24,592 nt of DNA, taken from positions 1 through 24,592 of the IMG/VR virus record IMGVR_UViG_3300025917_000058. One strand, written 5' to 3'. The translations under genes and the position numbers were made by a program. Source of the stretch: a virus. Shown one piece after another: positions 1,473-14,526 of this stretch. Each line of letters begins with the position of its first letter. Within the stretch, counting starts at the first letter, position 1. Under the pieces are notes generated by a model. It saw only the letters and a program-made list of their open reading frames with translations, was not told the origin of the DNA and did not search any database.

Positions 1473-1777
1473 CTGACAATAGACCGGGCTACGACGAAGC
1501 GGTAGAGGCGGTTGCCGCCCATTTGCATGAACAGGCTCGTAATCCGACCGGGACAGCGAAAGCTCTTCTCGACGCCGCCTACCCGATCATCGAACGGGCG
1601 GTGCGGGCGCGCATGGAGGTCGAGATGGGTGAGCGACTGAGAGCGTGGGGCAACGCGGACCGCGCTGACGAGCGCCGCCGGATCGTGGAGGCGCTACGGG
1701 CCGAGGGCGCGAAAGGCGAGGCGTCGATGTGGACATTCGGCATCGCCGCCGACTTCATCGAGCGGGAGCTTTCATGA
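1469..1777 (+). CDS. Helical hypothetical protein in GC-rich patch 2 (102 aa)
   Basis: This ORF couples to the zinc-ribbon gene through ATGA. It is nearly all alpha-helical and rich in Ala, Arg and Glu (AVEAVAAHL, ADERRRIVEALRAEG), ending in a WTFGIAADFIEREL segment. From about 1480 to its stop it is strongly GC-rich with G/C-ending codons and no CTAG. Similar helical proteins with an AxxHLHEQ...LLDAAYPIIE plan occur in Streptomyces-type phages and prophages as unknowns; this is recollection, not a search. It lies just upstream of the helicase gene, separated by 16 nt that include a stray ATGACT repeat of the next start. Confidence 0.65.
   Translation: MTDNRPGYDEAVEAVAAHLHEQARNPTGTAKALLDAAYPIIERAVRARMEVEMGERLRAWGNADRADERRRIVEALRAEGAKGEASMWTFGIAADFIERELS
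1480..1777. other. GC-rich, CTAG-free patch 2
   Basis: This is the second stretch with streptomycete-like composition, separated from the first by about 225 nt of phage-like DNA holding the zinc-ribbon gene (which has two CTAG words). The right edge is marked by ATGACTGCACC at 1774 and ATGACTAAG at 1794. The repeated ATGACT may be a scar: the helicase start could originally have overlapped the zinc-ribbon stop, with the insert duplicating the ATGA coupling site. Confidence 0.5.
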
Positions 1778-1793
1778 CTGCACCTAAGTTGCC

Positions 1794-3242
1794 ATGACTA
1801 AGCTCGTCTTCAAGACCAAGCCCCGCCCCTACCAGATCCCTGCACTTAAGAAGCTACTCCGCAGTGATCATCCGGGGGGCGGGCTATGGGTTCCTATGCG
1901 GTGGGGAAAAACCTGGGTAGGGATTAACGCAGCCGCCGCCCTGAACCTCAAGTACGCCTACTACCGTGTACTAGTGGTAACGACTGTAGACGGCATCGGG
2001 GTGTGGGAAGACGAGTTCGAGAAGCACTGCCCTATCCCCTACAGACTGTTTGATAAGCATGGTGAGCTAGTAGGAGGATCACAGTACGGGGCTAGCTATG
2101 AGGCTCCGATGGTCCTGCACGTACAAATTGTGAACTATGAGTGGATCTACGATCGGGAGCGTCAGTACGACAAGAAAGGTAAGTACGAGGGGTGGGATGC
2201 GGTAACGAGAAAGCAGCTACACAAGTTCGAGCCACAGATTATCATCGTAGATGAGAGTCATCACATAGGTAACCCTTCACCTATCATCTCGCGCAAACTT
2301 TACCATCTCGCTAAGAAGGCTCCGGTCAAGATCTTCATGACAGGTACTCCTTGGCACCGCAAACCGTTCTACGTATTCGGGCAGTTCAAGATCTACGACG
2401 ACTCTATCTTCGGTACCAACTTCGGTCAGTTCAAGAAGATGATAGCGGTGTTCGGGGGTTACGGTGGTTATGAAGTCAAGTCATACCAGAATCTAAAGTG
2501 GCTAAGAGACAAGGTCAAACCGCATGTATTCATCAGCAAGAAGATTCCCTCCGCTCCCCCTGTGGTACGGAAGATCAAATTCTCCCTCGCTGAAAGCCGA
2601 GATACGTACGATAAGATGGCAAGCGAGTCCTTCGTTAGCATTGACGGTAACGCTATCACAGCTCCCATCGTTCTCACTCGTCACCTTCGGCTTGCTCAGA
2701 TTGCAGGAGGATGGACGACCGATGAAGAGGGGGTTCGTCATTGCGTTGGACAAGATAGGAGAAAGGCCTTCAGGCGACGACTCGCCGAGTTCGATCAGGC
2801 TGGGATCCAAAAGATTGTGGTGGGCTGTCGTTTCATCCCAGAGCTAAAGGATTGCGCACTAGAGGCGAAGGCAGCTGGATACTCCATATACCTACTCCAC
2901 GGGGGAGTCTCTAGGGTAGAGAGGAAGGCTAGGAGAGAGGCCTTTAGGACCGACACAAAGGCTGTGATGGTTTGTCAGTTTAGAGCCTCACGAGAAGCTG
3001 TGGATATGAGTACAGCCGACACGATGGTCTTCTACTCCCTGCCCGAAGACTACCTCACATACGACCAGTTTAAGGCACGTATCGCTAAGTATGGAGAGAC
3101 GCGCACGCTACTCTACGAACACCTAATAGCGAAAGGTACTGTAGATGAAACTACCTTCGAGGCTTTAATGCTTGGTAGGGATGTCGCCGATCACCTAATG
3201 AAAAACCCTAGCTATGTGGAGGAAAGATCTGTGAAGCTCTAG
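1794..3242 (+). CDS. SNF2/SF2-type DNA helicase or translocase (482 aa)
   Basis: This is a superfamily 2 ATPase with two RecA-like domains. Visible motifs are a Q-motif-like RPYQ (residues 11-14), a Walker A variant MRWGKT (35-40) in place of the usual MGxGKT, a Walker B DESHH (153-157), and motif III TGTP (about 183-186). The C-terminal half holds the helicase C domain, with LLHGGVSR, VCQFRAS and a motif VI written QFKARIAKYGE. The usual QxxxRxxRxGQ would have Arg where Lys stands. Phage members of this family are thought to act in DNA replication or recombination by moving along or remodelling DNA. The assignment as SNF2-like is firm; the exact job is not. Confidence 0.9.
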   Translation: MTKLVFKTKPRPYQIPALKKLLRSDHPGGGLWVPMRWGKTWVGINAAAALNLKYAYYRVLVVTTVDGIGVWEDEFEKHCPIPYRLFDKHGELVGGSQYGASYEAPMVLHVQIVNYEWIYDRERQYDKKGKYEGWDAVTRKQLHKFEPQIIIVDESHHIGNPSPIISRKLYHLAKKAPVKIFMTGTPWHRKPFYVFGQFKIYDDSIFGTNFGQFKKMIAVFGGYGGYEVKSYQNLKWLRDKVKPHVFISKKIPSAPPVVRKIKFSLAESRDTYDKMASESFVSIDGNAITAPIVLTRHLRLAQIAGGWTTDEEGVRHCVGQDRRKAFRRRLAEFDQAGIQKIVVGCRFIPELKDCALEAKAAGYSIYLLHGGVSRVERKARREAFRTDTKAVMVCQFRASREAVDMSTADTMVFYSLPEDYLTYDQFKARIAKYGETRTLLYEHLIAKGTVDETTFEALMLGRDVADHLMKNPSYVEERSVKL

Positions 3243-3295
3243 AGTGTTATATACTCTGTAGTAGAAAAACATTATCTTCAGAAACAGAGAAAACC
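3243..3295 (+). promoter_or_regulatory. AT-rich leader before the nucleotide cassette (possible promoter)
   Basis: This 53-nt gap is one of the few real gaps in the rightward block and is clearly more AT-rich than its surroundings. It holds a small inverted repeat (AGAGT at 3241-3245 and ACTCT at 3253-3257) and a TATACT word that could serve as a -10 element; no convincing -35 was found. The gene behind it starts with TTG and has no good Shine-Dalgarno. It could carry a promoter or a control site for the cassette, but neither is shown. Confidence 0.3.
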
Positions 3296-3874
3296 TTGAT
3301 CATAATAGAAGGGCCGGATGGAGCAGGCAAGTCAACCCTAGTCAGAAAGATCTGCGAACGGTACGACATCAAGACCGGAGAACGAGGGGTCAAGAACCGC
3401 GACCTCCTCTACACAGTAACAAAGCAGGACACTTACACTGCCCTAGCGGCAATGGTAAAGGGCGATGAAGCACCTAAGGTGTGGGATAGGCTCTACTACT
3501 CGGAGTTGGTCTACGCGTCTGTAGTAGGTCGGGTCCCGGAGTTTACTTTCACAGACCAAAGCTTTATCCAGAGAGTCATTTCCGCAGCCAAGCCTCCCGT
3601 GATCGTGTGCTTTCCTAGCTTTAAGAAGGTGCAAGAGAACATTACTAAGGACAAGCAGATGGAAGGCGTGGTAGATAACATCGCTCTTATCTATGCACGC
3701 TATCTGACGCTTCTCTCTAGTGGAGTTTTCCCAGACCACAGAATGCTCTACTCCTACGAGGCTACAGGTGGAGATGACTACGACACACTAGACGAGATCT
3801 TCGAGGAGATTGACGACTACCTAAACGATCGTAAGCAGAGGGAATGGGTATGGGCCTCAGAAACCAACAACTAG
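3296..3874 (+). CDS. Thymidylate kinase-like deoxynucleoside monophosphate kinase (192 aa)
   Basis: The protein begins MIIIEGPDGAGKST, a P-loop (GPDGAGKS, residues 6-13) preceded by a beta strand as in TMK-family dNMP kinases. WDRLYYSELVY (about residues 62-72) corresponds to the family's DR motif for substrate phosphate binding. Such enzymes transfer phosphate from ATP to a dNMP. In phages with altered bases they can phosphorylate the modified dNMP, as T4 gp1 does for hydroxymethyl-dCMP; T4 gp1 is only a functional parallel. No in-frame ATG or GTG exists between the upstream stop and the TTG at 3296, so TTG is the start. It opens the cassette with MazG, two TS-like genes and dCMP deaminase. 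Confidence 0.85.
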   Translation: MIIIEGPDGAGKSTLVRKICERYDIKTGERGVKNRDLLYTVTKQDTYTALAAMVKGDEAPKVWDRLYYSELVYASVVGRVPEFTFTDQSFIQRVISAAKPPVIVCFPSFKKVQENITKDKQMEGVVDNIALIYARYLTLLSSGVFPDHRMLYSYEATGGDDYDTLDEIFEEIDDYLNDRKQREWVWASETNN

Positions 3875-4167
3875 TAACACAGATATGGCGCGACAAAAAC
3901 TTCCCCGGAAGCGGATGGGAAGATCAACTAATCGGAATGATGGAGGAGTTAGGCGAGCTATCGCACGCCCTCCTAAAGCAGAAGCAGAAGATCAGAGGCG
4001 AAGAAGAGAAGCACGAGGCGGATGCCAAGGATGCCGTCGGAGACTTGCTTATCTACTTGATGGGCCTCTGTTCTGTAAGAGACTGGGATGTCGAAGAGAT
4101 TCTCAATGATACTGTGGATCAAGTCCTCGGTCGCGACTGGCAGGCTAATCCACAGGACGGCTCATGA
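3850..4167 (+). CDS. MazG-like nucleotide pyrophosphohydrolase (105 aa)
   Basis: An all-alpha NTP pyrophosphohydrolase: the metal-binding EExxE motif is at residues 32-36 (EELGE) and the partner DAVGD at 61-65, followed by LLIYL. These enzymes cut a (d)NTP to the monophosphate and pyrophosphate. T4 gp56 dCTPase/dUTPase belongs to the same superfamily. The ATG at 3850 is chosen because AGAGGGA (3837-3843) lies 6 nt upstream; the in-frame ATG at 3844 would abut that site. The gene starts inside the kinase gene and ends with ATGA into the first TS-like gene. In context it may remove an unmodified dNTP such as dCTP, an inference from neighbours. Confidence 0.85.
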   Translation: MGLRNQQLVTQIWRDKNFPGSGWEDQLIGMMEELGELSHALLKQKQKIRGEEEKHEADAKDAVGDLLIYLMGLCSVRDWDVEEILNDTVDQVLGRDWQANPQDGS

Positions 4168-4991
4168 TCAAATCTTACCAGACTCTAACGGACCTGTGGG
4201 TGCAAGGCTGTAAAGACCTTCTATACATGCCCGCCTCGAAGCTTTCCTGGGCTGCAGGAGCTACTACGGGGGTTTACGACAACCTCCTAGCCTGCAGAAG
4301 TATGGAGTACGACTTCGATCCGGGGAGGGACCTGTGGCTTACTAAGCACAGATTCCAGAAGCTGCAGAGGGACTACATCGATTATGACCTCCTTCCAGCC
4401 TTCGTAGAGAAGGCCGCAAGCATGAAGCCGATCCTAGCTAAGCGCGGGACAGTAACTCAGATGTCCTGTAGAGTCCACGGAATGGTAGAACATGCAAAGG
4501 GGAAGGACAACTACAAGTGGGGGAACTGCATCTTCGGGTTTAGTTTTCGTCCAAGTCAGTCCCAGGCAGGCGTATTTACTATGCATAGCCGAACGAGTTA
4601 CATATCGTATATGGGAGGCTATGATCTGGCTCTTGCGTATAAGATCGCAGAAGCCATCGCAAGACTGCGCGGGGATTCTGTTGAAGACTACGGCTTCCGG
4701 TGGCACGTTGATTCTCTACAGTGGTACTCAATCAAAGCGATGCCATTCATTCACGTCTACGATCTCGTTGATGAGGTCCGAGACGCAAGTCCGGGAAAGA
4801 TCAGCAAGTACCCCTCACTAGGGATCACACACAACTCCTACATGTTCCTGCAGAAGCGTTGGGATAACGAGGATCCACCGAAGTATGGACCGACCCACCG
4901 AATCTGGGATCTCATGTTCAATCGTTACCTAGCGGGCAATCCTCCGGCATCAGTTCCCCTTACCTCCCTATCCTTAGAGGCACTTAAGTGA
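4164..4991 (+). CDS. Divergent thymidylate synthase-fold protein 1 (275 aa)
   Basis: The middle of the protein follows the TS core. There is a candidate catalytic Cys (C122 in GNCIFGFSF) and, 21 residues later, R143 in SRTSYISYMGGYD, which corresponds to the phosphate-binding RSxD segment of TS. Eleven residues after R143 is D154, the position of E. coli N177; Asp there is typical of dCMP-specific relatives. WHVDSLQWYS resembles the TS GDxHxYxNH segment but lacks its His. The first ~100 residues are unlike TS. It may modify a pyrimidine nucleotide or be a non-classical partner of the next gene's product. It is coupled to MazG by ATGA and to the next gene by GTGA. The family call rests on motif spacing read by eye. 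Confidence 0.5.
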   Translation: MIKSYQTLTDLWVQGCKDLLYMPASKLSWAAGATTGVYDNLLACRSMEYDFDPGRDLWLTKHRFQKLQRDYIDYDLLPAFVEKAASMKPILAKRGTVTQMSCRVHGMVEHAKGKDNYKWGNCIFGFSFRPSQSQAGVFTMHSRTSYISYMGGYDLALAYKIAEAIARLRGDSVEDYGFRWHVDSLQWYSIKAMPFIHVYDLVDEVRDASPGKISKYPSLGITHNSYMFLQKRWDNEDPPKYGPTHRIWDLMFNRYLAGNPPASVPLTSLSLEALK

Positions 4992-5848
4992 TCACCTACC
5001 AAAGCACTAACTACACTCTCGGCTTCGATGGAATGGTAAGCCACATCAAGAGAGACTTCACTGCAGCCCTTCCTGTGGATACCGGCCACTGGCAAGCCCT
5101 AAAGGGTGTTCCACAGACCAAGACGTTCGAGCTACAGAATGTAGCACTAGAGGTTCCCATCGCGGCTATACCTAACGACTGGGCACGAGAGACAGAACCT
5201 AACATGCCCTGGGCAGAGGCTCAGTTCCAGGAGCGCGTAGGTGGTAAGCCGGTCAATCCAGGAGAGACATACAAGGCCTGGCCCTACTATCGCGGGAATG
5301 TAGAGAAGCACCAAGACAAGGAGCAACAGTTCAGCCACACGTACATGGAGCGCTTCTGGCCAAAGTTTGCAAACACAGGCCAAACTCGACCTAATGGTCG
5401 TCAAGTGTTTGTTCCTCACAACGGAATTAGATACGAGTATGGTGACCTAGGAGATGTACTAGACCTTCTAATCCAAGAGCCACATACACGCCAGGCCTAT
5501 CTGCCGATCTTCTTTCCGGAGGATACAGGAGCCCATCACAGAGAGCGGATCCCCTGTACGCTAGGGTATCACTTTATGCTAAGGCAAGACAAGCTCTCCT
5601 GCTTCTATCCCATCCGCTCCTGTGACTTCTATCGACACTTCAGGGACGATGTCTATATGGCCGGGCGACTAGTGCAGTGGATTATCTCTCAGCTAGTTGA
5701 TCGTGTAGGACTGGAAGATCAGCCGGCGTACGCAGAAGAGACTGACAATGTGTGGAATGCAGTAACCCCCGGTAACCTGACGATGTTCATCCCGAGCCTA
5801 CACATCTTCGAAGGAGATATGCCTCGCCTAAAGAGAGAACTAGCATGA
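4988..5848 (+). CDS. Thymidylate synthase family enzyme with dCMP-hydroxymethylase signature (286 aa)
   Basis: This is a clear TS-family protein. It has YGDLGDVLDLL and EPHTRQA (R168, TS phosphate Arg), the nucleophile C190 in IPCTLGYHF, then R210-S-C-D213 exactly 20 residues later as in E. coli TS (C146, R166), and FIPSLHIFEGD (TS GDxHxY). At the position of the TS uracil-selecting Asn (E. coli N177, R+11) it has D221. Asp here is the established mark of dCMP hydroxymethylases (T4 gp42) and switches TS towards cytosine. So the likely reaction is addition of a one-carbon group from methylene-tetrahydrofolate to C5 of dCMP. The start is GTG at 4988 in a GTGA overlap. Whether the product is hydroxymethyl-, methyl- or otherwise substituted dCMP cannot be read from the sequence. 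Confidence 0.75.
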   Translation: MITYQSTNYTLGFDGMVSHIKRDFTAALPVDTGHWQALKGVPQTKTFELQNVALEVPIAAIPNDWARETEPNMPWAEAQFQERVGGKPVNPGETYKAWPYYRGNVEKHQDKEQQFSHTYMERFWPKFANTGQTRPNGRQVFVPHNGIRYEYGDLGDVLDLLIQEPHTRQAYLPIFFPEDTGAHHRERIPCTLGYHFMLRQDKLSCFYPIRSCDFYRHFRDDVYMAGRLVQWIISQLVDRVGLEDQPAYAEETDNVWNAVTPGNLTMFIPSLHIFEGDMPRLKRELA

Positions 5849-6273
5849 GACCGACACGAGAGGAGACGTACCTTGAAATCTGTGGAGTCCTCCGAAAGCG
5901 GAGCACCTGCCTCCGAGGTAAAGTTGGAGCTATCCTGGTCAAGGATCGACGAATTATCTCCACAGGCTATAACGGAAGTCCTCCGGGTGCTCCACACTGC
6001 GATGACCTCGGCTGTTCAGTCCCGGAAAACGAGCACGAAGCAGGGTGCCTCCGAACCATTCACGCTGAAGCTAACGTTATCGCATACGCTGCCCGCCATA
6101 ACGGTGGAGCTGAAGGATCCGCTCTCTACTGCACTCACTCCCCCTGTCTGAAGTGTGCTCAGCTTCTAGTTTCTGCAGGAGTCGTAGAGGTGCACTACAA
6201 GACCCTCTACCGTATCCCAGACGGTGTAGACCTTCTGCAGTCTCTAGGCATCCTGACTTTCTACCATGAGTGA
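5845..6273 (+). CDS. dCMP deaminase (142 aa)
   Basis: This is a zinc-dependent deaminase with the catalytic HAEAN (H73, E75) and PCLKC (C101, C104) zinc ligands, and the substrate-binding stretch GYNGSPPGAPHC (residues 41-52) typical of deoxycytidylate deaminases. It converts dCMP to dUMP, feeding dTMP synthesis. The length is normal for the family. It overlaps the preceding TS-family gene by ATGA and the polymerase gene by 8 nt, so it is firmly part of the cassette. With a dCMP-type TS relative next door it would share the dCMP pool between thymine and modified cytosine, as in T4. Confidence 0.92.
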   Translation: MRPTREETYLEICGVLRKRSTCLRGKVGAILVKDRRIISTGYNGSPPGAPHCDDLGCSVPENEHEAGCLRTIHAEANVIAYAARHNGGAEGSALYCTHSPCLKCAQLLVSAGVVEVHYKTLYRIPDGVDLLQSLGILTFYHE

Positions 6274-8698
6274 CTTCCGAGAGAAACTACGCAACCCAGA
6301 CTGTGAACTCTGTCCTCTTAACGAGGGAGCAGAGTTTGTTTGCCTTCTGGGATCCGGGCCTCCTAGGGCAAAGATCATGGTTGTAGGGGAGGCTCCGGGA
6401 GGTACAGAGGATGATGAAGGTCTTCCTTTCGTGGGATCCGCAGGTAGGCTGCTAGACAAGTCACTAAAGGAACTAGGCAACCTCGACAGGGACGACCTCT
6501 ACGTCACTAACGTAGCGAAGTGTAGGCCACCAGAAAATCGTGCACCAGAGCTGAAAGAGATCAAGGCCTGTGTTAGCTCCTACCTTCTCGAAGAGTTCAA
6601 AGCGGTCAAGCCGGACTTTGTACTCCTACTCGGCAACTCTGCTCTTAGGGGTGTTATTGGGAAGTCTGGGATTACGAAGCAAGCAGGCTCGGTCTTCAAG
6701 GTCGAAGTTGCTTCGGGACATTGGGCTAGGATCATGCCCACCATCCATCCCGCTGCGGTTCTACGAAACCCCAAGTGGACAAGTACATTTAAGGCGGATA
6801 TTACGAGGTTCGGCAACCTGGTGCGAGGACTCGATCCGTCTCCACAGACTAGAGTCAAGATTGTTAAGAACAAGAGGCAACTGCGATGGCTCCTAGAGCA
6901 GCTAGCAGAAGCTACCGAAATCTCCTGGGACATCGAGACATCTAATGACCCTGTGGAGAAACCTTACGTCCGAACTAACTTCCAGGACTGGCACGGAGAA
7001 GAGTCCCATATCACTTCTTGCTGCTTCTCCTGGGAAGAGGGCATGGCCGAAGTAGTTCCTTTCCATCATCCCGATACTCCGTGGACTAATCCCGAGAAGG
7101 TGCTATCAGTCTTCAAGGATGTAATGACTAGGGAGGGCGTGAAGTACATCGGTCATAATGGAAAGTTCGATGCAAGGTGGTTCCACAGCAAGGGGATCCC
7201 CGTACCCCAGACTTTCGATACGATGCTAGCAGCGCATATGCTAGACGAGAACCAGCCGAAAGGCCTAAAGCCACAGAGCAAAGTAGTGCTAGGGGCTAAT
7301 GCTTACGACGTAGGTGAGGAACTAAAGAACGCAAAGAACATTCCACTAAAGCGCCTCTGCACCTATAACGGTAAGGACACCGACTACACCCTACGCCTCT
7401 ATCATGTACAGAGAGAGCAACTAAAGGCTGAGCCTAGGGTAGCTAGGGTCTTCTCGAAGCTTATGATGCCTGCAAGTGAGGCTCTAGTGGATATTGAGAG
7501 AACCGGAGTCTGGGTAGACCCGGAGAGATGGGAGACACGATACATACAGGCGTGCGAGACTAGGGACAAGATCCACAAGTTCATCTCTCAGTACGCGGGA
7601 TGGGACATCAACCTCAACTCTCCACAGCAGGTAGGCAAGCTTCTCTTCGATGTGCTAAAGCTACCCATCATCGCTAAGACTAAGAAAGGTGCTCCATCTA
7701 CAGCGGAAGCTACCCTCCTTCGCATTGCAGACCAACACAAAGTAGCTACTGCACTTATCAAGTACAGGAAGTGGGCTAAGTATGTCAACACCTACCTCGG
7801 ACCATGGAAGTACGAATGGATGGATTCGGGAGGAAGGATACACAGCTCGTACAAGCTCTTTGGCACGGTCACTGGCAGACTTTCTGGTGAAGGAGGCATT
7901 CAACAAGTCCCGCGAGACCCGTTCATACGCGGTGTCATTGGAGCGACACCGGGATGGAGTTTCCTTCAGGCTGACTATTCGCAAGTTGAGCTAAGAATCG
8001 CAGCCATGCTCTCGGGCGACAAGAAGATGCTCGGGCAGTACCTCCGTGGGGAAGACATCCACATGATCCGGGCTATGCGAATGACGGGTAAGCCTGCAGA
8101 TCAGGTAAGCAAGGAGGAGAGGAAGAAAGCCAAGGCCGTGAACTTCGGTTACATCTACTCGATGGGAGCTAAGAAGTTCGTCAGCTATGCCTTTGATAAC
8201 TACGACCTCAAGATTACACTAGAAGAGGCAGAGGCAGATAGACGTTCGTTCTTCGAGGACTACCAATCCCTAAGGCCTTGGCACGCTAGACAGAGGAAAC
8301 TAGCCCAGAGGTACGGCAGGGTCCAGTCTCCTATCGGACGCATCCGACACCTACCGGATATCAAGTCCGAGGATGAGAAGGTACGAGCAGAGGCAGAGAG
8401 GCAGGCGATCAACTCTCCTGTCCAGTCCTTTGCCTCCGATCTAATGCTCCTATCTCTAGTTGAACTCCACAGGAACCTAGACCGCAAGAGATGCCGTATC
8501 GTAGGTACAGTTCACGACTCTATCCTCTTCGAGGTCAAGCAAGGCTATGAGGACGAGTACGCAGAGATAATCAAAAACCAGATGGAGGACATGTCCCTCG
8601 TGAAGAAGAAGTTCGCCACAGAAGTAACAGTACCTATCGTAGCCGATATCGAAATCGGGACGCACTGGGGGGAGACAAAGCCATGGGTCAGAAGCTAA
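6266..8698 (+). CDS. UDG (family 4)-DNA polymerase I fusion with 3'-5' exonuclease (810 aa)
   Basis: Residues 1-190 form a family-4/5-type uracil-DNA glycosylase domain: the four Fe-S cysteines C13, C16, C86 and C102, the GEAPG motif at 41-45, GLPFVGSAGRLLD, and HPAAVLRN beginning at H161. The DEDDy exonuclease follows: DIET (D222, E224), GHNGKFDARW, and a NGKDTDYTLRL third motif. The C-terminal half is a family A polymerase: motif A DYSQVELR (D570), motif B AKAVNFGYIYSMG (about 624-636) with Phe at the E. coli F762 position and Tyr at Y766, and motif C VHDS (D751). There is no 5' nuclease domain. It is probably the replicative polymerase. A UDG-like N-terminus on a phage family A polymerase is known from SPO1, a hydroxymethyluracil phage. 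The domain could scan the template for uracil. Confidence 0.92.
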   Translation: MSDFREKLRNPDCELCPLNEGAEFVCLLGSGPPRAKIMVVGEAPGGTEDDEGLPFVGSAGRLLDKSLKELGNLDRDDLYVTNVAKCRPPENRAPELKEIKACVSSYLLEEFKAVKPDFVLLLGNSALRGVIGKSGITKQAGSVFKVEVASGHWARIMPTIHPAAVLRNPKWTSTFKADITRFGNLVRGLDPSPQTRVKIVKNKRQLRWLLEQLAEATEISWDIETSNDPVEKPYVRTNFQDWHGEESHITSCCFSWEEGMAEVVPFHHPDTPWTNPEKVLSVFKDVMTREGVKYIGHNGKFDARWFHSKGIPVPQTFDTMLAAHMLDENQPKGLKPQSKVVLGANAYDVGEELKNAKNIPLKRLCTYNGKDTDYTLRLYHVQREQLKAEPRVARVFSKLMMPASEALVDIERTGVWVDPERWETRYIQACETRDKIHKFISQYAGWDINLNSPQQVGKLLFDVLKLPIIAKTKKGAPSTAEATLLRIADQHKVATALIKYRKWAKYVNTYLGPWKYEWMDSGGRIHSSYKLFGTVTGRLSGEGGIQQVPRDPFIRGVIGATPGWSFLQADYSQVELRIAAMLSGDKKMLGQYLRGEDIHMIRAMRMTGKPADQVSKEERKKAKAVNFGYIYSMGAKKFVSYAFDNYDLKITLEEAEADRRSFFEDYQSLRPWHARQRKLAQRYGRVQSPIGRIRHLPDIKSEDEKVRAEAERQAINSPVQSFASDLMLLSLVELHRNLDRKRCRIVGTVHDSILFEVKQGYEDEYAEIIKNQMEDMSLVKKKFATEVTVPIVADIEIGTHWGETKPWVRS

Positions 8699-8910
8699 GC
8701 AAGAGGAAAAGGTACGCAGCCTGTCGGGGGATCCAGAACCAGGCCACACTCCTAGCTCATGTAGAGCACGAACTGTGGAGAGCAGGTAACGTCGAGAAGG
8801 GCGGCCTAATGGAAGGTGAACGAGAGTACCTAGAGAAGCGGGCCGAGATGTTAAAGAAGGTACGTGAAGACCTAGGCAAACTAGGATCAAGATTGCAAGG
8901 AACATTATGA
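8683..8910 (+). CDS. Small basic helical hypothetical protein (75 aa)
   Basis: Basic and almost wholly helical: KLSKRKR at the start, then two helices rich in Glu, Lys and Leu (EREYLEKRAEMLKKVREDL) that could form a coiled coil. No domain is recognised. It starts inside the polymerase gene behind a GGGGGGAGA ribosome site and ends with ATGA into the nuclease gene, so it is translationally tied to both replication neighbours. A small accessory factor for polymerase or nuclease is possible but is a guess. Confidence 0.65.
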   Translation: MGQKLSKRKRYAACRGIQNQATLLAHVEHELWRAGNVEKGGLMEGEREYLEKRAEMLKKVREDLGKLGSRLQGTL

Positions 8911-9875
8911 CAGAGATGGTCCTATCGAACTCCAGGACCAAAACCTGGAGGCGGTGTCCTAACCTATACCGCTACAAATATGTGATGGGTCTAAAGCCAA
9001 AGAAAGAGCAGTCAGCTCTACGCAGAGGCTCTTGGCTCCACGAGCTATTCCAGGTTCACTACGACGGTGAGGACTGGAAGAAGCGCCACAGAGAGCTCAC
9101 CGCAGAGTTCAACCTCATGTTCGAGGAGGAAAGGGCTGACCTAGGCGACCTCCCTAGTGAGTGTGCAAGGATCTTTATCGCCTACTTGATGAACTACCGG
9201 GACGAGGACTCACACTATAAGATCATCGACTCCGAGCTTGACGAGGTAATCACGCTACCTAACGGTCTGAAGTTCCGGATGATCATTGACCTTATCGTAG
9301 AGGAGCCCGACGGGGGACTGTGGCTCTGGGACCATAAGACCGTCAAGAACTTCATGGATGCAGACTTCCTCCTTATCGATGCACAGCTTACGCGATACTT
9401 CTGGGGAGCCGAACACCTCGGATATAAGAACCTTCGTGGGGTAATCTTCAACGAGGTAATCACTGCTCCGCCTACGCGTCCTGAGCTACTAAAGAACGGA
9501 CGCCTAACCGAACGGCAGAACCTACGGTGCGATGTCTATACCTACTACCGCGAGATCAAGCGTCTAGGTCAGGATCCTAAGGACTACCGCAAGACGCTTG
9601 CTAGGCTTGCCACACAGAACGACAGATGGTTCCGTCGAACAAGACTTGCCAAGGACCGAGCCATGACTACTCAGATGATGCAAGAGCTAGTCTATACAGC
9701 GCAAGAGATGCAGAGGGCCGAGAGGACAGGTCATTTCCCGCGGACTCCTGATCGGTCCTGCACCTTCGGTTGCAGCTTCCTAAACCTTTGCCAAATGGAA
9801 CTCCAAGGAGGAGATACAGCACCTCTTATCAAGATGAACTACACCGACAGAACAGACAGGACGGAGGACGTCTAG
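8907..9875 (+). CDS. Cas4/RecB-like PD-(D/E)XK exonuclease with Fe-S cysteines (322 aa)
   Basis: The nuclease core shows LHELF near residue 47, an acidic strand MIIDLIVEEPDGG (D about 131) and LWDHKT (about 146-151), giving the D...(D/E)xK catalytic set of the RecB/Cas4 family. One Cys near the N-terminus (RRCPNLYRY) and three near the C-terminus (CTFGCSFLNLC) match the four-Cys iron-sulfur cluster of AddB/Cas4-type nucleases. Such phage enzymes process DNA ends for recombination. The gene sits next to a Sak4-like ATPase and an SSB-like protein, a common phage recombination trio. It couples upstream by ATGA, and the next gene begins directly after its stop. The tail after about residue 300 is polar. 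Confidence 0.88.
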   Translation: MTEMVLSNSRTKTWRRCPNLYRYKYVMGLKPKKEQSALRRGSWLHELFQVHYDGEDWKKRHRELTAEFNLMFEEERADLGDLPSECARIFIAYLMNYRDEDSHYKIIDSELDEVITLPNGLKFRMIIDLIVEEPDGGLWLWDHKTVKNFMDADFLLIDAQLTRYFWGAEHLGYKNLRGVIFNEVITAPPTRPELLKNGRLTERQNLRCDVYTYYREIKRLGQDPKDYRKTLARLATQNDRWFRRTRLAKDRAMTTQMMQELVYTAQEMQRAERTGHFPRTPDRSCTFGCSFLNLCQMELQGGDTAPLIKMNYTDRTDRTEDV

Positions 9876-10646
9876 GTGGCAAAGCAAGTTAGCCACACAA
9901 AAGCCGTAGAGAGTATCGGCAAAAGGATCAGACCTGTGGATGAGATTAGCCCACACGCTAAGGTGTTAGTCTACGGTCGCAATAAGAATGGTAAGACCAA
10001 GTTCGCGGCTACGGCTCCGAAGGTTCTTATCATTGACATCGACGAGGAGGGTACGAGGTCTGCCGTAGGATCCGGTGCACAGGTTGTAGAGGTATCAACC
10101 TTTGATGAGGTTGCTCACGTCTACTGGTACCTAAAGGCTGGAAACCACGGATACAAGAGCGTAGCGATCGACACGATCACTGCACTGCAGAACGCAGCGC
10201 TACGCAAGGTACTAGGTGAGGCAGAGGATCGGGACCCCACACGAGAGCCTTCCACACCAGATAGGCGTACGTGGGGTAGAGCTAACCAGCTAGTCAAGGG
10301 GTTGCTCCTAGACTTCCGCAACTTGCCGATGAACGTAGTCTTCCTAGCACAGGAACGAGTTATCAACGACGAGGAGTCTGATGAAGCTGCACTCCACACA
10401 GTAGACCTCCCGGCAGGATCTAGAGCTGTGGCCCTAGGTTGTGTCGGTATCATCGGTCGGATCTACTTGCGAGAGGCTAAGGTCAAAGGCAAGAAGAATC
10501 CACAGTGGGAAGCCCGAATGCTAGTGGGATCCCACGAAGAGTATGACACTGGAAACCGTGTCAGCACTCTACCTCGTATCATTCGTAACCCAAACATGAA
10601 GAACATTATCAAAGAGTGGCGTGCTAACGCTACAGAAGGAGAGTAA
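9876..10646 (+). CDS. Sak4-like RecA-fold ATPase / recombinase (256 aa)
   Basis: The GTG at 9876 follows the previous TAG directly. VLVYGRNKNGKTKFA holds a Walker A (GRNKNGKT, about residues 34-41) and YKSVAIDTIT a Walker B strand ending in Asp. LRNLPMNVVFLAQE fits the RecA-core strand that follows. The size and order match Sak4-type (AAA_24) phage single-strand-annealing ATPases, which help pair homologous DNA together with an SSB, and an SSB-like gene is next. It lacks the N- and C-terminal domains of full RecA. The fold call is firm; the Sak4 label rests on size, motifs and neighbours. Confidence 0.82.
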   Translation: MAKQVSHTKAVESIGKRIRPVDEISPHAKVLVYGRNKNGKTKFAATAPKVLIIDIDEEGTRSAVGSGAQVVEVSTFDEVAHVYWYLKAGNHGYKSVAIDTITALQNAALRKVLGEAEDRDPTREPSTPDRRTWGRANQLVKGLLLDFRNLPMNVVFLAQERVINDEESDEAALHTVDLPAGSRAVALGCVGIIGRIYLREAKVKGKKNPQWEARMLVGSHEEYDTGNRVSTLPRIIRNPNMKNIIKEWRANATEGE

Positions 10647-10649
10647 CAC

Positions 10650-11291
10650 GTGGCTAAGAAAGACGTTCTGAGCATTGACTTTACCAAGGAAGAGGAGGGC
10701 GGCGGAGGAGGTCGTGTTAAGTGGCCTGAGGGAGACTATCACGTCAAGATCGTGAAGTCTAGGACCGGACGCTCCTCTGAGAAGGACACTCCATACCTAG
10801 AGGTCACCTTCAAGGTTCTAGAGGGCAAGAAGAAGGGCAAGGAGATTAGCGAGAAGCTATACCTCACGCCCAAGAGCCTGAAGCGCGTTCGTATGCTTCT
10901 AGAGGCCATCGGAGTCAAGGTTCCGAAGAGTGCCATCAATCTCCCTCTAGCCAAGCTCAAGGGTAAGACTCTGTGGATCGAACTACAGGATGAAGAGTCA
11001 GACGGTTACGATCCTCGTTCTCGTGTTGCCTTCGAGGGATTTATGTCAGAGGATGACTACACTCCCGAGGATGAAGATGATGATGAAGACGATGAGGACG
11101 TTGAAGACGACGAAGATGATGACGAAGACGATGATGAAGATGACGATGAAGACGATGAAGATGACGACGATGAGGATGACGAAGAGGAAGAAGTAAAGCC
11201 GAAGAAGAAGGCAAAGGCCAAGGCCAAGCCGAAGGCCAAGAAGAAGAAGGATGACGACGAGATCGAAGACCTCGATTTGGATTTGCTCTAG
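10650..11291 (+). CDS. SSB-like (DUF669-type) protein with long acidic tract and basic tail (213 aa)
   Basis: Residues 1-135 resemble phage ssDNA-binding proteins of the DUF669 type: WPEGDYHVKI, TPYLEVTFKVLEGKKKGKEI, LYLTPKSLKRVRMLLEAIG, then LKGKTLWIEL. Residues 140-181 are acidic except for one Val (41 of 42 are Asp or Glu). A Lys/Ala/Pro stretch follows (about 183-201) and the protein ends in a second acidic piece, DDDEIEDLDLDLL, like the acidic C-terminal tip by which bacterial SSBs recruit partners. The start is GTG at 10650 with AAGGAGAG upstream. It is probably the partner of the Sak4-like protein. The long alternating acid-base-acid tail is unusual and could compete with DNA for the binding face or recruit replication proteins. 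Confidence 0.72.
   Translation: MAKKDVLSIDFTKEEEGGGGGRVKWPEGDYHVKIVKSRTGRSSEKDTPYLEVTFKVLEGKKKGKEISEKLYLTPKSLKRVRMLLEAIGVKVPKSAINLPLAKLKGKTLWIELQDEESDGYDPRSRVAFEGFMSEDDYTPEDEDDDEDDEDVEDDEDDDEDDDEDDDEDDEDDDDEDDEEEEVKPKKKAKAKAKPKAKKKKDDDEIEDLDLDLL
11067..11192 (+). repeat. GAY/GAR trinucleotide tract encoding 41 of 42 acidic residues
   Basis: This run of GAT, GAC, GAA and GAG codons is low in complexity and prone to slippage, so its length may vary between related phages. Codons are mixed (GAT/GAC, GAA/GAG) rather than one repeated triplet, which suggests selection for acidic residues more than recent expansion. The opposite strand reads as an artefactual poly-Ser ORF. Confidence 0.85.
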
Positions 11292-11305
11292 TGACCAACG
11301 GAACG

Positions 11306-11325
11306 GTGGGGGCTACGGCCCCCGC
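11306..11325 (+). terminator. Hairpin with UACG tetraloop after the SSB-like gene
   Basis: GTGGGGGC (11306-11313) and GCCCCCGC (11318-11325) pair over 8 bp with one T-G wobble around a TACG loop closed by C-G. C(UACG)G is one of the most stable RNA tetraloops. The hairpin stands 14 nt after the TAG of the SSB-like gene. No T-run follows, so it is not a textbook intrinsic terminator; it could attenuate transcription, protect the 3' end of the upstream message, or set expression of the VRR-NUC gene, which has a weak ribosome site. Confidence 0.55.
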
Positions 11326-11343
11326 TAATCCACAGGTATACAC

Positions 11344-11640
11344 ATGAAAAATGAAGCTGCACTCCAACGAAAGATCCAACAGTACCTAAAGGCACGAGGA
11401 GTCTACTGCAACAAGAACCAGGGAGGGCCAACTAGCAGAGGCCGACCAGACCTAGAGGGTTGCTACTGTGGCCTCTACTGGGCACTGGAGGTAAAGATGC
11501 CTGGAAGAGAGAATACTCTCACAGATCACCAGGCCCACAGCTTAGCATCTATCAAGGAAGCGGGAGGCTACGCAGAAGTAGCTACTTCCACAGAAGACGC
11601 TAGGATCATGCTAAAGCATCTAGACAAACTACGACGATGA
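11344..11640 (+). CDS. VRR-NUC domain nuclease (98 aa)
   Basis: A stand-alone VRR-NUC protein of normal size: an N-terminal helix (EAALQRKIQQYLKARGV), then RGRPDLEGC with the catalytic Asp, ALEVKMPG with the ExK pair, and LTDHQAHSL. The family are PD-(D/E)XK structure-specific nucleases, often found in phage replication regions and thought to cut branched DNA. The start has no good Shine-Dalgarno; a CCACAG word (11330-11335) and the UACG hairpin lie just before it, which may mean controlled translation. It ends with ATGA into the mIHF-like gene. Confidence 0.88.
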   Translation: MKNEAALQRKIQQYLKARGVYCNKNQGGPTSRGRPDLEGCYCGLYWALEVKMPGRENTLTDHQAHSLASIKEAGGYAEVATSTEDARIMLKHLDKLRR

Positions 11641-11924
11641 CCTACCCTATCAAACTAGCAAGAGAACACAAGGCTCAGAAGGCTAAGGCACTGGCTGCTC
11701 TAAGAGAGGGGAACCTAAGCCTACGCGAAGTCTTACGTGACCGCCCTGAGCCGCTCCTGGGGGTAGATATTTACGAGATCCTCCTAGCCACAAAGGGACT
11801 AGGGCCAAAGACCGCCCAACTAGTGCTAATGAAGTCTGTGGTCTGGCCTTACGTCAGACTATCACGACTTAGTAAAGTAGACCAAGGCCGCATCCTCCGC
11901 AACCTTCCTGAAAGGATCAAGTAA
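11637..11924 (+). CDS. mIHF-like DNA-binding protein (95 aa)
   Basis: The order of elements follows actinobacterial integration host factor (mIHF): an N-terminal helical part, LSLREVLRD, then VDIYEILLATKGLGPKTAQLVLM, the helix-two-turns-helix DNA-binding core with the GLGPKTA turn, and a C-terminal VRLSRLSKVDQGRILRNL in place of the host RRVRGLGxxQRxxLL. mIHF binds and bends DNA and compacts the nucleoid. A phage copy might organise phage DNA, regulate genes or imitate the host protein. Because this family is largely actinobacterial it also supports the host assignment. It overlaps the gene before (ATGA) and the gene after (TAATG). Confidence 0.8.
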   Translation: MTYPIKLAREHKAQKAKALAALREGNLSLREVLRDRPEPLLGVDIYEILLATKGLGPKTAQLVLMKSVVWPYVRLSRLSKVDQGRILRNLPERIK

Positions 11925-12328
11925 TGGAACTGACAGTAGGCGAGCTTCTCGCTAGACGACGACTTAAGCAGGATACGCTAGGCGGTGTAGAGAGGTATAT
12001 CCCAGGACAGCACTCTGCCACAATGATTGGCGACCAGGCGATCCTATCCTATGTAGACGGCACCGGCTTCGTATGTATCGTGCCTTGCCACTTCGTAGAC
12101 GATGAGTGGATTACCTACGCCTACGTCGTACGCTGTGGACTACTGACTGTGGACTCTCGTTTCATGGGTCGGCCACAGCCTCTATCGGAGGCCTCGGTTC
12201 GCGCTCTACAGGCTGCGGTTAAGAAGGCTGAGGAGAAGAAGCCAAAGAAGAAGACCACACAAAAAGAAGGGGCCACCCCCATCCCAGAGGCGACCCCTTC
12301 TTCTACTACACCGAGCGAGGAGAGCTAA
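11924..12328 (+). CDS. Hypothetical protein with low-complexity tail (134 aa)
   Basis: This is the last gene of the rightward block, joined to the mIHF-like gene by TAATG. Residues 1-75 look like a compact, strand-rich domain (MIGDQAILSYVDGTGFVCIVPCHF, in two overlapping pieces) with three Cys. Residues 78-134 are Lys/Glu then Thr/Pro/Ser-rich and probably disordered. I do not recognise the domain. The tail codons contain the leftward terminator-like hairpin (12264-12302), so the tail sequence may be constrained by RNA structure rather than protein function. Confidence 0.65.
   Translation: MELTVGELLARRRLKQDTLGGVERYIPGQHSATMIGDQAILSYVDGTGFVCIVPCHFVDDEWITYAYVVRCGLLTVDSRFMGRPQPLSEASVRALQAAVKKAEEKKPKKKTTQKEGATPIPEATPSSTTPSEES
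12261..12302 (-). terminator. Leftward rho-independent-type terminator inside the end of a rightward gene
   Basis: AAGAAGGGG (12264-12272) and CCCCTTCTT (12294-12302) form a perfect 9-bp inverted repeat with a 21-nt GC-rich interior that can fold further. Read on the minus strand the second arm CCCCTTC runs into TTTTT (complement of AAAAA at 12261-12265), the form of an intrinsic terminator. It lies about 50 nt beyond the stop of the lysin, the last leftward gene, so it would end the structural-lysis transcript. Confidence 0.65.
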
Positions 12329-12350
12329 CGCTCGATGCCTCCTGAGGGAG
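12312..12350 (+). terminator. Possible rightward terminator at the convergent junction
   Basis: CGAGCG (12312-12317) pairs with CGCTCG (12329-12334) across an 11-nt loop that contains the stop codon of the last rightward gene. A second small hairpin, CTCC-TGAG-GGAG (12339-12350), follows and leads into AGTTTAG. The T-run is short, so this is a weak candidate for ending rightward transcription where the two gene blocks meet. Confidence 0.35.
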
Positions 12351-12353
12351 AGT

Positions 12354-12857
12354 TTAGATGTACCGCCGGAAGGCTAGTACGTCTGGCCGGTAGTGCACCG
12401 GAAGAATGTAGGGGCCGCCCTCTGAGCCGTGAGAGAAGACCTTTCCACCTCCGATATACATCGCTACGTGCTCTCCGGGGTAGCCATTCCCATAGATGAC
12501 TGCATCACAGACCTTCAGACCCGACTCGTGATGTACAGTCTTACCATGCTCTAGTAGAGTACCCGTGAACCCCCCCGTCCAGTTGGCTCCATTGACAATA
12601 TCCTTTAGGCCAAAACGATGGTGTAGGATACGCCACATAATCCACGAGTACGTTGAAGAGCAATCACCGAAGAAGGGGAAGAACCCCGGCTTATGGATCA
12701 TCTTCTTCTGTAGGATAGGCTCCCAGCGACTAGCTCCCATTGTGTAATGGACATTAGCTGGGTTAGACATCAGCTTTCTTACACACTGCAAAGCTAGACG
12801 CCTAGCCTCGATCCGTCGTTTCCTGCTGAGGCCGCTGTATGTAGTAGACCTCTTCAT
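12354..12857 (-). CDS. NlpC/P60-like peptidoglycan endopeptidase, putative endolysin (167 aa)
   Basis: The C-terminal ~110 residues have the papain-like layout of NlpC/P60 enzymes: catalytic Cys C66 in FFGDCSSTYSW, CDAVIYG (GD-like turn), catalytic His H130 in GEHVAMYIGGGKV, and a further His (H143) as third polar residue candidate. These enzymes cut peptide bonds in cell-wall stems. The N-terminus is strongly basic (RKRRIEARR) and there is no signal peptide, so export would depend on the holin-like neighbour, whose gene it overlaps by 4 nt. It is the last gene of the leftward operon. A tail-associated hydrolase is an alternative, but position next to the holin favours lysis. Confidence 0.75.
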   Translation of the reverse strand: MKRSTTYSGLSRKRRIEARRLALQCVRKLMSNPANVHYTMGASRWEPILQKKMIHKPGFFPFFGDCSSTYSWIMWRILHHRFGLKDIVNGANWTGGFTGTLLEHGKTVHHESGLKVCDAVIYGNGYPGEHVAMYIGGGKVFSHGSEGGPYILPVHYRPDVLAFRRYI

Positions 12858-13168
12858 GTCTTCGGTACGACCGTTAGGCCTGCATCGCCTTGGTCGGGCT
12901 CGATCGTAGTAGCAACCGGGATCCCCGAGGTGATCGGAGTCTCCGGATCGCCCACAGCCTCGTTACCTAGCGGATTTGAGGCAACTGGATCTGTAGTGCC
13001 GTGCTTAGCTAGGCCTCGTGCGATAGCGTAAGCCGCCGGAAGGACGAGATCCATAAGTCCTTGGTAACGGTCCGGGATTGGTAGGGCCGAAATGTTGTTG
13101 AGAACGAGTAGGGCTAGAGTTCCCCAGAACTCTGTGGTCTTCCAACCCGGTTTTGCGACTATAGGCAT
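12854..13168 (-). CDS. Holin-like membrane protein (104 aa)
   Basis: The N-terminus, KPGWKTTEFWGTLALLVL, resembles small actinophage holins, with hydrophobic segments at about residues 14-31 and 40-53 separated by a short polar turn (PDRYQG). The rest (55-104) is acidic, Pro/Thr-rich and probably cytoplasmic. Holins open the membrane at a set time so that the lysin can reach the wall. AAGGAG lies before the ATG, and its end overlaps the lysin start. The holin role is inferred from size, hydrophobic segments and position. Confidence 0.65.
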   Translation of the reverse strand: MPIVAKPGWKTTEFWGTLALLVLNNISALPIPDRYQGLMDLVLPAAYAIARGLAKHGTTDPVASNPLGNEAVGDPETPITSGIPVATTIEPDQGDAGLTVVPKT

Positions 13169-13190
13169 TTGCTTCTCCTTAGATGAGACA

Positions 13191-13493
13191 TTAGTGTAGC
13201 TTTACAATATCGGTACAATCCACAATCCGAAGATGTGGTATACCGTCTTTGGGGTGCTTTGATGCAACAATGTTTATTGCTTTACGTGAGTCGTTTGCCC
13301 TCTTGCAGGCGCGAACATTATCTTCACTTACGCGAGTAAAGAGTATGGCGGAAAGTAGTACACAAGCCGAGCCTAGTAATAGACTAAAAGCAATAGCACC
13401 CTTCCAACGTTTAGGTATATCTGAAGTAAGTGCTCTCATATAAGTTTTCGATCTTCGATCTAAAAGTCCAAGGCGTCGTTCGTCGGTTGTCAT
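13191..13493 (-). CDS. Small single-pass membrane protein of the lysis region (100 aa)
   Basis: The ATG at 13493 is chosen because it overlaps the preceding stop as ATGA; a longer reading to 13568 would lie inside that gene. The N-terminal 30 residues are charged (TTDERRLGLLDRR), residues 32-53 are one hydrophobic helix, and the C-terminal ~45 residues carry two Cys that could form a disulfide outside the cytoplasm. This plan, with N inside and a small outer domain, would fit a holin partner or regulator. The DNA is more AT-rich and poorer in CTAG than its neighbours. Confidence 0.65.
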   Translation of the reverse strand: MTTDERRLGLLDRRSKTYMRALTSDIPKRWKGAIAFSLLLGSACVLLSAILFTRVSEDNVRACKRANDSRKAINIVASKHPKDGIPHLRIVDCTDIVKLH

Positions 13494-13786
13494 GTTGTAT
13501 GACCTAAGATAATGGCAATGCCACCGGATAGCATTGATATGGACGCTATAAAAGTGCCGATATACCATCTCTTATCGCTCCTACGCTCATTAGCTTGCCT
13601 AAGAGCAGTAGCTGCGATATCATCACGAAGCTTATGGATATTGTTGCGACAAGAGGTTACGTCTTTAGCCACGTAACTAAGATCTGTCTTGAGTGCTCCA
13701 ATCTCATCCACAGTATTCATAGTTCGTCTAAGGTCTTCATAGAGGTCATCTAGCCTATCATCATTCCACCTGCTTAGAGGAGTCAT
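13490..13786 (-). CDS. XhlA-like coiled-coil protein with C-terminal membrane anchor (98 aa)
   Basis: The first ~60 residues are helical with heptad-like spacing (LDDLYEDLRRTMNTVDEIG, then IHKLRDDIAATAL). One hydrophobic helix at about 74-95 (YIGTFIASISMLSGGIAII) ends the protein, leaving a short outer tail. Proteins of this plan (XhlA-like, haemolysin/holin-associated) are common beside phage holins. It overlaps both neighbours by 4 nt. Family assignment is by architecture only. Confidence 0.6.
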   Translation of the reverse strand: MTPLSRWNDDRLDDLYEDLRRTMNTVDEIGALKTDLSYVAKDVTSCRNNIHKLRDDIAATALRQANERRSDKRWYIGTFIASISMLSGGIAIILGHTT

Positions 13787-14526
13787 GTGACTAGACCGGC
13801 ACGGTAGGTGATGCCGTCAAGATGTAGAGTCCCAAAGCCGTCTCCTGGAATCCCGCGGACTACATCTCCACCAGGGAAATATGTATAGAGCATCTCCGGC
13901 TGCGGACCAGGATCATTACAGACTATGTACCCTCCTTGTACAGTGTGGTCAAAGTTGTAGATGTTCGAGAAGAATAACTGAACCGAGCGACCACTATAGT
14001 CTAGTTCAGTGATACCTCCAAAAGTGGCCCCTGATGATGAGTTCTGCCAGTTAAAAGGTACGGTAAGGAGCTGGCTCTGTAGGGGACAAAAATCAGGGGG
14101 TATGTATTGGTCAGGTGTCCCGACAGCGCCTGCACTACTACCCGCCAGGGTTACCCTAGGGGAGTTCTTTCCCACGGTATTGCCGTAAGTAGTTCCGAAA
14201 ACGTTACTAGCATCACCATACCAATGTGATTTAGTTACTTCTTGGAAATTCTCGCCCGCCGCTACATCTGCAGGAGTCATGTTTGGCTCATACAAAAGCA
14301 TCCCATACATCGTACAGATATCACCATCACGTACAATGCATAGCGGAGGAGCTGGGTTGGGGTTAGGGCTACTGTGTAGGTAGCTATCTACTACATAGTA
14401 GTCTGGTGCAAATCCTTCACTAAGATAAGGTGCTAGGTCTAGGACATTTGGCTCAGAAAAGTTCCTGATCTGCATGCCCTTGACTCTACGTTTAAGGCTT
14501 AGGTAATCATCAACGAAGTCTGGCAT
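13783..14526 (-). CDS. Putative minor tail / host-contact protein (247 aa)
   Basis: Strand-rich and aromatic, with many Gly, Asn, Pro and Tyr (PNPNPAPP, TPDQYIPPDFCP, YSGRSVQLFF, YFPGGD) and no membrane segment. This is the composition of tail-tip or receptor-binding proteins. The N-terminus (VDDYLSLKRRVKGMQ) is helical and could attach to the hub. It follows the tail hub gene (TAATG overlap) and precedes the lysis group, the usual place for a minor tail or fibre protein. No catalytic motif was seen. Confidence 0.6.
   Translation of the reverse strand: MPDFVDDYLSLKRRVKGMQIRNFSEPNVLDLAPYLSEGFAPDYYVVDSYLHSSPNPNPAPPLCIVRDGDICTMYGMLLYEPNMTPADVAAGENFQEVTKSHWYGDASNVFGTTYGNTVGKNSPRVTLAGSSAGAVGTPDQYIPPDFCPLQSQLLTVPFNWQNSSSGATFGGITELDYSGRSVQLFFSNIYNFDHTVQGGYIVCNDPGPQPEMLYTYFPGGDVVRGIPGDGFGTLHLDGITYRAGLVT

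Follow-up and report, generated by a model that had tools for sequence, protein, structure and literature searches.

A conserved actinophage gene cassette with two thymidylate-synthase-fold proteins, proposed to supply a C5-substituted deoxycytidine nucleotide

The cassette and its constituent genes

The window analysed here, a soil-phage contig of 24.6 kb (24,592 nucleotides) which is equal to the complete IMG/VR record IMGVR_UViG_3300025917_000058, harbours at 3296-6273 a block of five overlapping genes. They encode a TMK-like nucleotide kinase, a MazG-superfamily nucleoside triphosphate (NTP) pyrophosphohydrolase, two proteins of the thymidylate synthase (TS) fold, designated tsA and tsB, and a deoxycytidine monophosphate (dCMP) deaminase (Table 1). 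All five open reading frames are present where a first-pass annotation of this DNA had placed them, and the start of the adjoining gene for DNA polymerase I (PolA) overlaps the end of the deaminase gene. We consider it probable that the products of this cassette supply the phage DNA with a C5-substituted deoxycytidine nucleotide. The origin of the contig from an actinophage, claimed beforehand, is supported by its capsid protein which matches 434 records, nearly all of them from phages of Mycobacterium, Microbacterium, Arthrobacter and Gordonia and every one at less than 60% identity.

In most relatives retrieved by protein search, the genes for kinase, tsA, tsB, deaminase and PolA are retained in this order. 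The block is present in the named phages Zuko, Muddy, Serbin, Amok, PMBT14, FF47 and Strzyga, in the last of which it contains no annotated deaminase, and a Desulfofustis phage carries it with fewer genes annotated. Its distribution extends over several host phyla, with carriers among phages of Gordonia, Mycobacterium, Streptomyces, Serratia, Pseudomonas and other hosts. The cultured carriers amount to dozens, including Gordonia CT-cluster phages, Emalyn-type phages, Muddy, FF47, Serratia phage Serbin and Pseudomonas phage PMBT14; in these the cassette is interpreted as serving thymidylate or thymine synthesis. Three of the 25 IMG/VR records, and Streptomyces phage Zuko as well, encode a separate ThyX. 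Full-length ThyA is present in jumbo-type contigs, and the one inspected has a complete C-terminal tail, the PPCH motif and Asn at position 177.

The kinase of the window is assigned to the thymidylate kinases (3.5e-17). The profile of its family scores the kinase encoded near the 5-hydroxy-dCMP synthase of phage RB69 at 35.5 bits compared to 14 bits for E. coli Tmk, while T4 gp1 is absent among the matches listed for this profile. The pyrophosphohydrolase is recognised as MazG-like (4.3e-8). The same slot is occupied in Muddy, Amok and Zuko by dUTPase_2 proteins homologous to the T4 deoxycytidine triphosphate (dCTP) pyrophosphatase (dCTPase) gp56 (BLASTP ~1e-8), and in PMBT14 and Strzyga by PRA-PH proteins. 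This replacement of one NTP pyrophosphohydrolase family by another within a single slot fits a predicted role as dCTPase. Searches of the MazG-type protein and the kinase of the window against PDB sequences yielded nothing decisive. We would like to note that Mycobacterium phage Muddy, which has been discussed for therapy, carries the cassette at 10288-15819 (L058) with the gp56 homologue in the dCTPase slot. In the PolA of the window, the uracil-DNA-glycosylase domain (PF03167) is fused at residues 29-172.

Table 1. Features of the cassette and positions of key codons in the window
Feature	Position	Strand	Basis and remarks
TMK-like nucleotide kinase	3296..3874	+	PHROG 761; TTG start; proposed kinase for modified dCMP
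MazG-superfamily NTP pyrophosphohydrolase	3844..4167	+	PHROG 715; proposed dCTPase
tsA, divergent TS-fold protein with conserved Cys/Arg/Asp	4164..4991	+	AlphaFold2 model, structure matches
tsA C122 codon, predicted nucleophile	4527..4529	+	conserved in 37/37
tsA D154 codon, equivalent of E. coli N177	4623..4625	+	conserved in 37/37; R143 + 11 residues
tsB, proposed TS-fold dCMP C5-modifying enzyme	4988..5848	+	PHROG 160; AlphaFold2; structure and profile matches
tsB R187 codon, Cys minus 3	5546..5548	+	Arg in 49/49
tsB C190 codon, nucleophile	5555..5557	+	Cys in 49/49
tsB D221 codon, site of E. coli N177, T4 D179 and MilA D186	5648..5650	+	Asp in 49/49, gapless alignments
dCMP deaminase	5845..6273	+	PF00383 2.7e-22; PHROG 174 2.9e-48
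DNA polymerase I with N-terminal uracil-DNA-glycosylase-family domain, conserved cassette neighbour	6266..8698	+	PF00476 7.5e-91, PF03167 4.9e-32

Active sites of the two TS-fold proteins and predicted substrate of tsB

The sequence of tsB is assigned to the TS family (2.7e-26). We compared 49 tsB sequences, namely the protein of the window, 40 from viral contigs and eight from named phages, and found R168, R187, C190, R210 and D221 to be invariant throughout this set. The TS nucleophile (C190) and the RSCD motif (210-213), both already ascribed to this protein, are present. The distance from the catalytic Cys to the substrate Arg (20 residues) and from this Arg to the 177 site (11 residues) is the same in E. 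coli ThyA (L143-C146-H147-R166-S167-N177), T4 gp42 (D145-C148-T149-R168-S169-D179), RB69 p048 (Glu(-3)-C163-Thr-R183-Ser-D194) and tsB (R187-C190-T191-R210-S211-D221). Hence, D221 corresponds to E. coli N177, as the first-pass annotation had asserted, and the gapless alignment with T4 gp42 D179, MilA D186 and N177 agrees with this. Since Asp is kept at this site in all 49 sequences, its occurrence is not due to chance. The accompanying notion that an Asp in this place is the mark of dCMP hydroxymethylases holds only as far as cytosine specificity is concerned; the residue is common to hydroxymethylases, 5-hydroxylases and methylases of the TS fold.

With respect to the sugar, the published MilA residues K133, A176 and D186 correspond to R168, S211 and D221 of tsB. 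Mutants of MilA carrying Arg and Ser in the places of K133 and A176 favour dCMP over cytidine monophosphate (CMP), and the Asp accompanies cytosine (PMC5175136). Unlike MilA, tsB of the window possesses the deoxy-selecting pair R168 and S211, and from these specificity residues a deoxy substrate, i.e. dCMP, is predicted. At site 147, the second diagnostic position of MetaGPA, tsB has Thr or Ser, as found after the Cys in T4 gp42 and MilA; RB69 p048 likewise has Thr, while E. coli TS has His. Following the H-x-F motif only 12 residues remain in tsB (family median 14), as in RB69 p048 (12), compared to 28 in T4 gp42 and 55 in E. coli ThyA, and a D-x-Y sequence after the specificity Asp is common to tsB and RB69 p048. 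Searched with the tsB profile, the T4 genome returns its dCMP-modifying paralogue at 26.6 bits and its true TS at 18.5 bits, the RB69 genome at 31.3 and 19.3 bits, respectively. Further scores of the profile amount to 35.3 bits for RB69 p048, 26.3 bits for T4 gp42 and 19.6 bits for ThyA.

The AlphaFold2 model of tsB (predicted local distance difference test (pLDDT) score 86.8) superimposes best with two dCMP hydroxylases, 9iqc (Z 19.8) and 9iqu (Z 19.5), true TSs following closely at 19.1. The hydroxylase structures lead TS and MilA by no more than about 1 Z unit. According to its title, 9iqc is a riboflavin-dependent monooxygenase with dCMP and flavin adenine dinucleotide (FAD), whereas 9iqu is the dCMP hydroxylase AfhB of phage HY126 with dCMP; the RB69 p048 sequence agrees with the 9iqu stretch in a HMMER alignment. 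A profile search of the PDB with tsB is headed by MilA (2e-8), followed by 9iqu (7e-7) and the T4 dCMP hydroxymethylase (3e-5). In a viral contig of 430 kb (L055, 9929-11839), tsB contains an in-frame intein situated exactly at the catalytic Cys (GERVP / CFTGEI...TVHN / CTIGYHF).

By sequence libraries (Pfam, PHROG) tsA is not placed as a TS, nor does a PDB profile search usefully do so, and a profile comparison with tsB is weak (E 0.096). For these reasons its TS kinship had to be derived from structure. The AlphaFold2 model (pLDDT 93.4) matches TS-fold enzymes best (9iqu, Z 15.0; 9iqc, 14.7; MilA, 14.3), with true TSs reaching at most 11.4, which substantiates the presence of two TS-fold proteins in the cassette. 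In all 37 tsA sequences C122, R143 and D154 are invariant, a set overlooked by the first-pass annotation, and the weak profile comparison lines them up with C190, R210 and D221 of tsB. The spacing from R143 to D154 corresponds to that of TS enzymes (11 residues), while that from Cys to Arg is one residue longer. Of the 25 IMG/VR records searched whole, 17 contain tsA, among them every small relative. It is missing from the other eight, which comprise the jumbo-type contigs and some shorter ones of this type. As judged by eye, tsA lacks a conserved pair equivalent to Glu58 or Arg126. It may therefore be a partner of tsB or a differently acting enzyme, and it is the least explained part of the cassette.

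We also considered gene fusion or strict adjacency as evidence for a tsA-tsB heterodimer. This line of argument was discarded as no fusion was seen, small genes often lie between the two, their order is reversed in one contig (L048), and another one (L042) has two adjacent tsA genes (8059-9027 and 9036-9893), each with Cys, Arg and Asp.

The proposed pathway and its possible products

The pathway put forward in the first-pass annotation, in which dCTP is drained, dCMP modified at C5 and the product rephosphorylated, finds good support in the specificity residues, in the conservation of the gene set, in the gp56 homologues occupying the slot in relatives and in the separate thymidylate synthases of the latter. 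In such a route, the MazG-type enzyme would hydrolyse dCTP to dCMP, and C190 of tsB, with its cytosine-selecting Asp, would attack C6 of dCMP to enable the installation of a C5 substituent. The TMK-like kinase would then begin rephosphorylation of the modified product, and PolA would incorporate the resulting nucleotide. The deaminase could convert surplus dCMP to deoxyuridine monophosphate (dUMP) for the synthesis of deoxythymidine triphosphate (dTTP), and tsA, which has the same Cys, Arg and Asp, might cooperate with tsB or be a second modifying enzyme in its own right. The gene order and its conservation, the fold, the residues and the predicted specificity for dCMP are results of the computation, while the catalysis, its product and the presence of the base in the DNA are inferred. 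As to the substituent, our leading, if tentative, estimate is 5-hydroxy-dCMP, followed by 5-hydroxymethyl-dCMP as a real possibility; 5-methyl-dCMP or some other substituent appears rather less probable. If the proposal is true, the carriers have modified cytosine, with consequences for resistance to restriction, type IV defences, engineering by CRISPR and nanopore sequencing. As cultured phages have the block, the proposal is directly testable.

Several observations speak against this interpretation. The sequence similarity to characterised enzymes is low, at about 20%, and the MazG family of the window shows no significant match to T4 gp56 (E 0.23). Among 33 records searched, a carbamoyltransferase occurs in one and GT2 in nine, mostly jumbo-type contigs, both families being missing from most small relatives; hence, there is no shared decorating enzyme which would corroborate a modified base. 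In the literature, neither biochemistry on members of the cassette nor a measured modified base in its carriers was found, and no report of modified DNA was found for Muddy, GTE2, FF47 and PMBT14, although work of 2025 on glycosylated 5-hydroxycytosine (Lee 2025; Mahler 2025) may include the clade. A last objection concerns the nature of the product. According to Park et al. (2019), the water is activated for hydroxymethylation by an acidic residue three positions before the catalytic Cys (D145 in T4, Glu in some cases), and the D145N mutant is dead (PMC6400193). In all 49 tsB sequences, Arg (R187) takes the place of this signature residue of dCMP hydroxymethylases; TS has Leu at the position, T4 gp42 has Asp and RB69 p048 has Glu. 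With regard to the water-holding S94/Y96 motif of T4 (Ser/Thr-x-Tyr), the YG anchor puts Y149-E150-Y151 of tsB in this place, albeit in a weakly aligned stretch, and Y151 is Tyr in 38 of the 49 sequences.

Given the small differences in Z score and MilA as the best match in the PDB profile search, hydroxylation and hydroxymethylation are close rivals. We tentatively incline towards tsB being a flavin-dependent dCMP 5-hydroxylase like AfhB of RB69/HY126, with 5-hydroxy-dCMP as its product. Such an assignment agrees with the closest fold, 9iqc and 9iqu heading the structure matches of tsB and ranking near the very top for tsA, with the specificity Asp, and with the ranking of the profile scores (RB69 p048 above T4 gp42 above ThyA). 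The short C-terminus, the D-x-Y sequence and the resemblance of the cassette kinase family to the kinase near RB69 p048 point in the same direction, and a description of the Mosigvirus enzyme as 5-hydroxy-dCMP synthase assigns it to the TS superfamily (PMC13390438). The assignment of tsB as a hydroxylase is opposed by the Glu which RB69 has in place of R187, by the PDB profile search, where MilA does at least as well, and by the small margin over other TS-fold enzymes. In addition, the relatives inspected carry no gene annotated for arabinosyl transfer.

Only slightly less probable is that tsB is a T4-like dCMP hydroxymethylase using methylene-tetrahydrofolate, leading to 5-hydroxymethyldeoxycytidine in the DNA. 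The TS fold, the conserved Cys, the substrate Arg, Asp at the N177 site, the deoxy-selecting Ser/Arg pair and Thr/Ser after the Cys are all present; MilA, which tops the PDB profile search, is itself a hydroxymethylase, and one jumbo relative has a carbamoyltransferase of a family acting on 5-hydroxymethyldeoxycytidine (PMC8670742). Yet, R187 breaks the T4 signature, the Tyr96 position varies, and the top structures are hydroxylases, though by the narrow margin given above. The gp42-like function suggested by the first-pass annotation is thus one candidate among others.

A more speculative and rather unlikely proposal takes tsA and tsB as an obligate pair, acting as a hetero-oligomer or in successive steps, which would make a base other than hydroxymethyl- or plain hydroxycytosine. 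The invariant R187 would draw an anionic nucleophile, or else another donor, towards the C5 intermediate, and the base would occur in many phages of actinobacteria and proteobacteria whose genes are now annotated as thymine makers.

That tsB simply makes thymidylate (dTMP), as is currently annotated for the “thymine synthesis” block (e.g. Azira gp43), is improbable. Admittedly, dCMP deaminase, dUTPase/MazG and TMK would suit a route to dTMP. In its simple form, however, the TS reading is disfavoured by Asp instead of the Asn of ThyA at site 177 in all 49 sequences, by the missing C-terminal tail which closes the active site in ThyA and by separate ThyA or ThyX in relatives. His147 is likewise missing, and L. 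casei TS becomes a dCMP methylase upon the N229D exchange (Liu and Santi 1992, as cited in PMC8670742). This same conversion by a single Asn-to-Asp change would favour tsB as a dCMP methylase producing 5-methyldeoxycytidine as in phage Xp12, which we nevertheless regard as very improbable because the C-terminal tail and the Leu143 equivalent typical of TS are lacking.

Elsewhere in the window, a DUF669 protein (10650-11291) with a very long Asp/Glu run followed by a Lys-rich stretch adjoins an AAA_24 (Sak4-like) protein, and a protein of the tail region (14526-15770) yielded no match when compared at E 0.01 with 50,697 phage records.

Comparison with known systems

Phage T4 produces hydroxymethylcytosine by means of the dCTPase gp56, the dCMP hydroxymethylase gp42, the kinase gp1 and a dCMP deaminase. 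The cassette shares this set of activities, a TS-fold protein with the cytosine-specific Asp and, in Muddy, Amok and Zuko, a gp56 homologue. In contrast to T4, it has Arg rather than Asp/Glu three residues before the Cys, a kinase which is not detectably of gp1 type and the extra TS-fold protein tsA; it adjoins PolA instead of a family B polymerase, and no glucosyltransferase is seen.

The AfhB enzymes of RB69 and HY126 (9iqc, 9iqu) provide the closest structures for both tsA and tsB and share with the latter the short C-terminus and the specificity Asp, a related kinase being encoded near the RB69 gene. They differ by an aligned identity of about 22% and by Glu in place of the Arg before the Cys. 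Moreover, RB69 possesses genes for sugar activation and an arabinosyltransferase which are not seen with the cassette, and the RB69 stretch inspected contains no counterpart of tsA.

In the contigs with protected cytosine identified by MetaGPA, the TS domains mostly have Asp at position 177. They are accompanied by PRA-PH and dCMP deaminase, often also by a carbamoyltransferase (PMC8670742). The cassette has the same domain set and the same diagnostic residue, an Asp177 TS, MazG/PRA-PH and dCMP deaminase being found on one contig; unlike the MetaGPA contigs, its small relatives are devoid of the carbamoyltransferase. A jumbo relative with tsB (L070) encodes a NodU-type carbamoyltransferase and GT2 (1546-4401) a few kb from a canonical ThyA and about 20 kb from tsB, an arrangement which recalls the MetaGPA contigs with 5-carbamoyloxymethyldeoxycytidine.

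Finally, gp41-47 of Azira, a Gordonia phage of the CT cluster, has been published as a “thymine synthesis” operon (PMC10353413). This operon is homologous to the cassette, and its “thymidylate synthase” gp43 matches tsB; the residues, however, argue for dCMP as substrate. Among the characterised enzymes compared, the pairing of two TS-fold proteins together with an active site containing Arg187 is unmatched.

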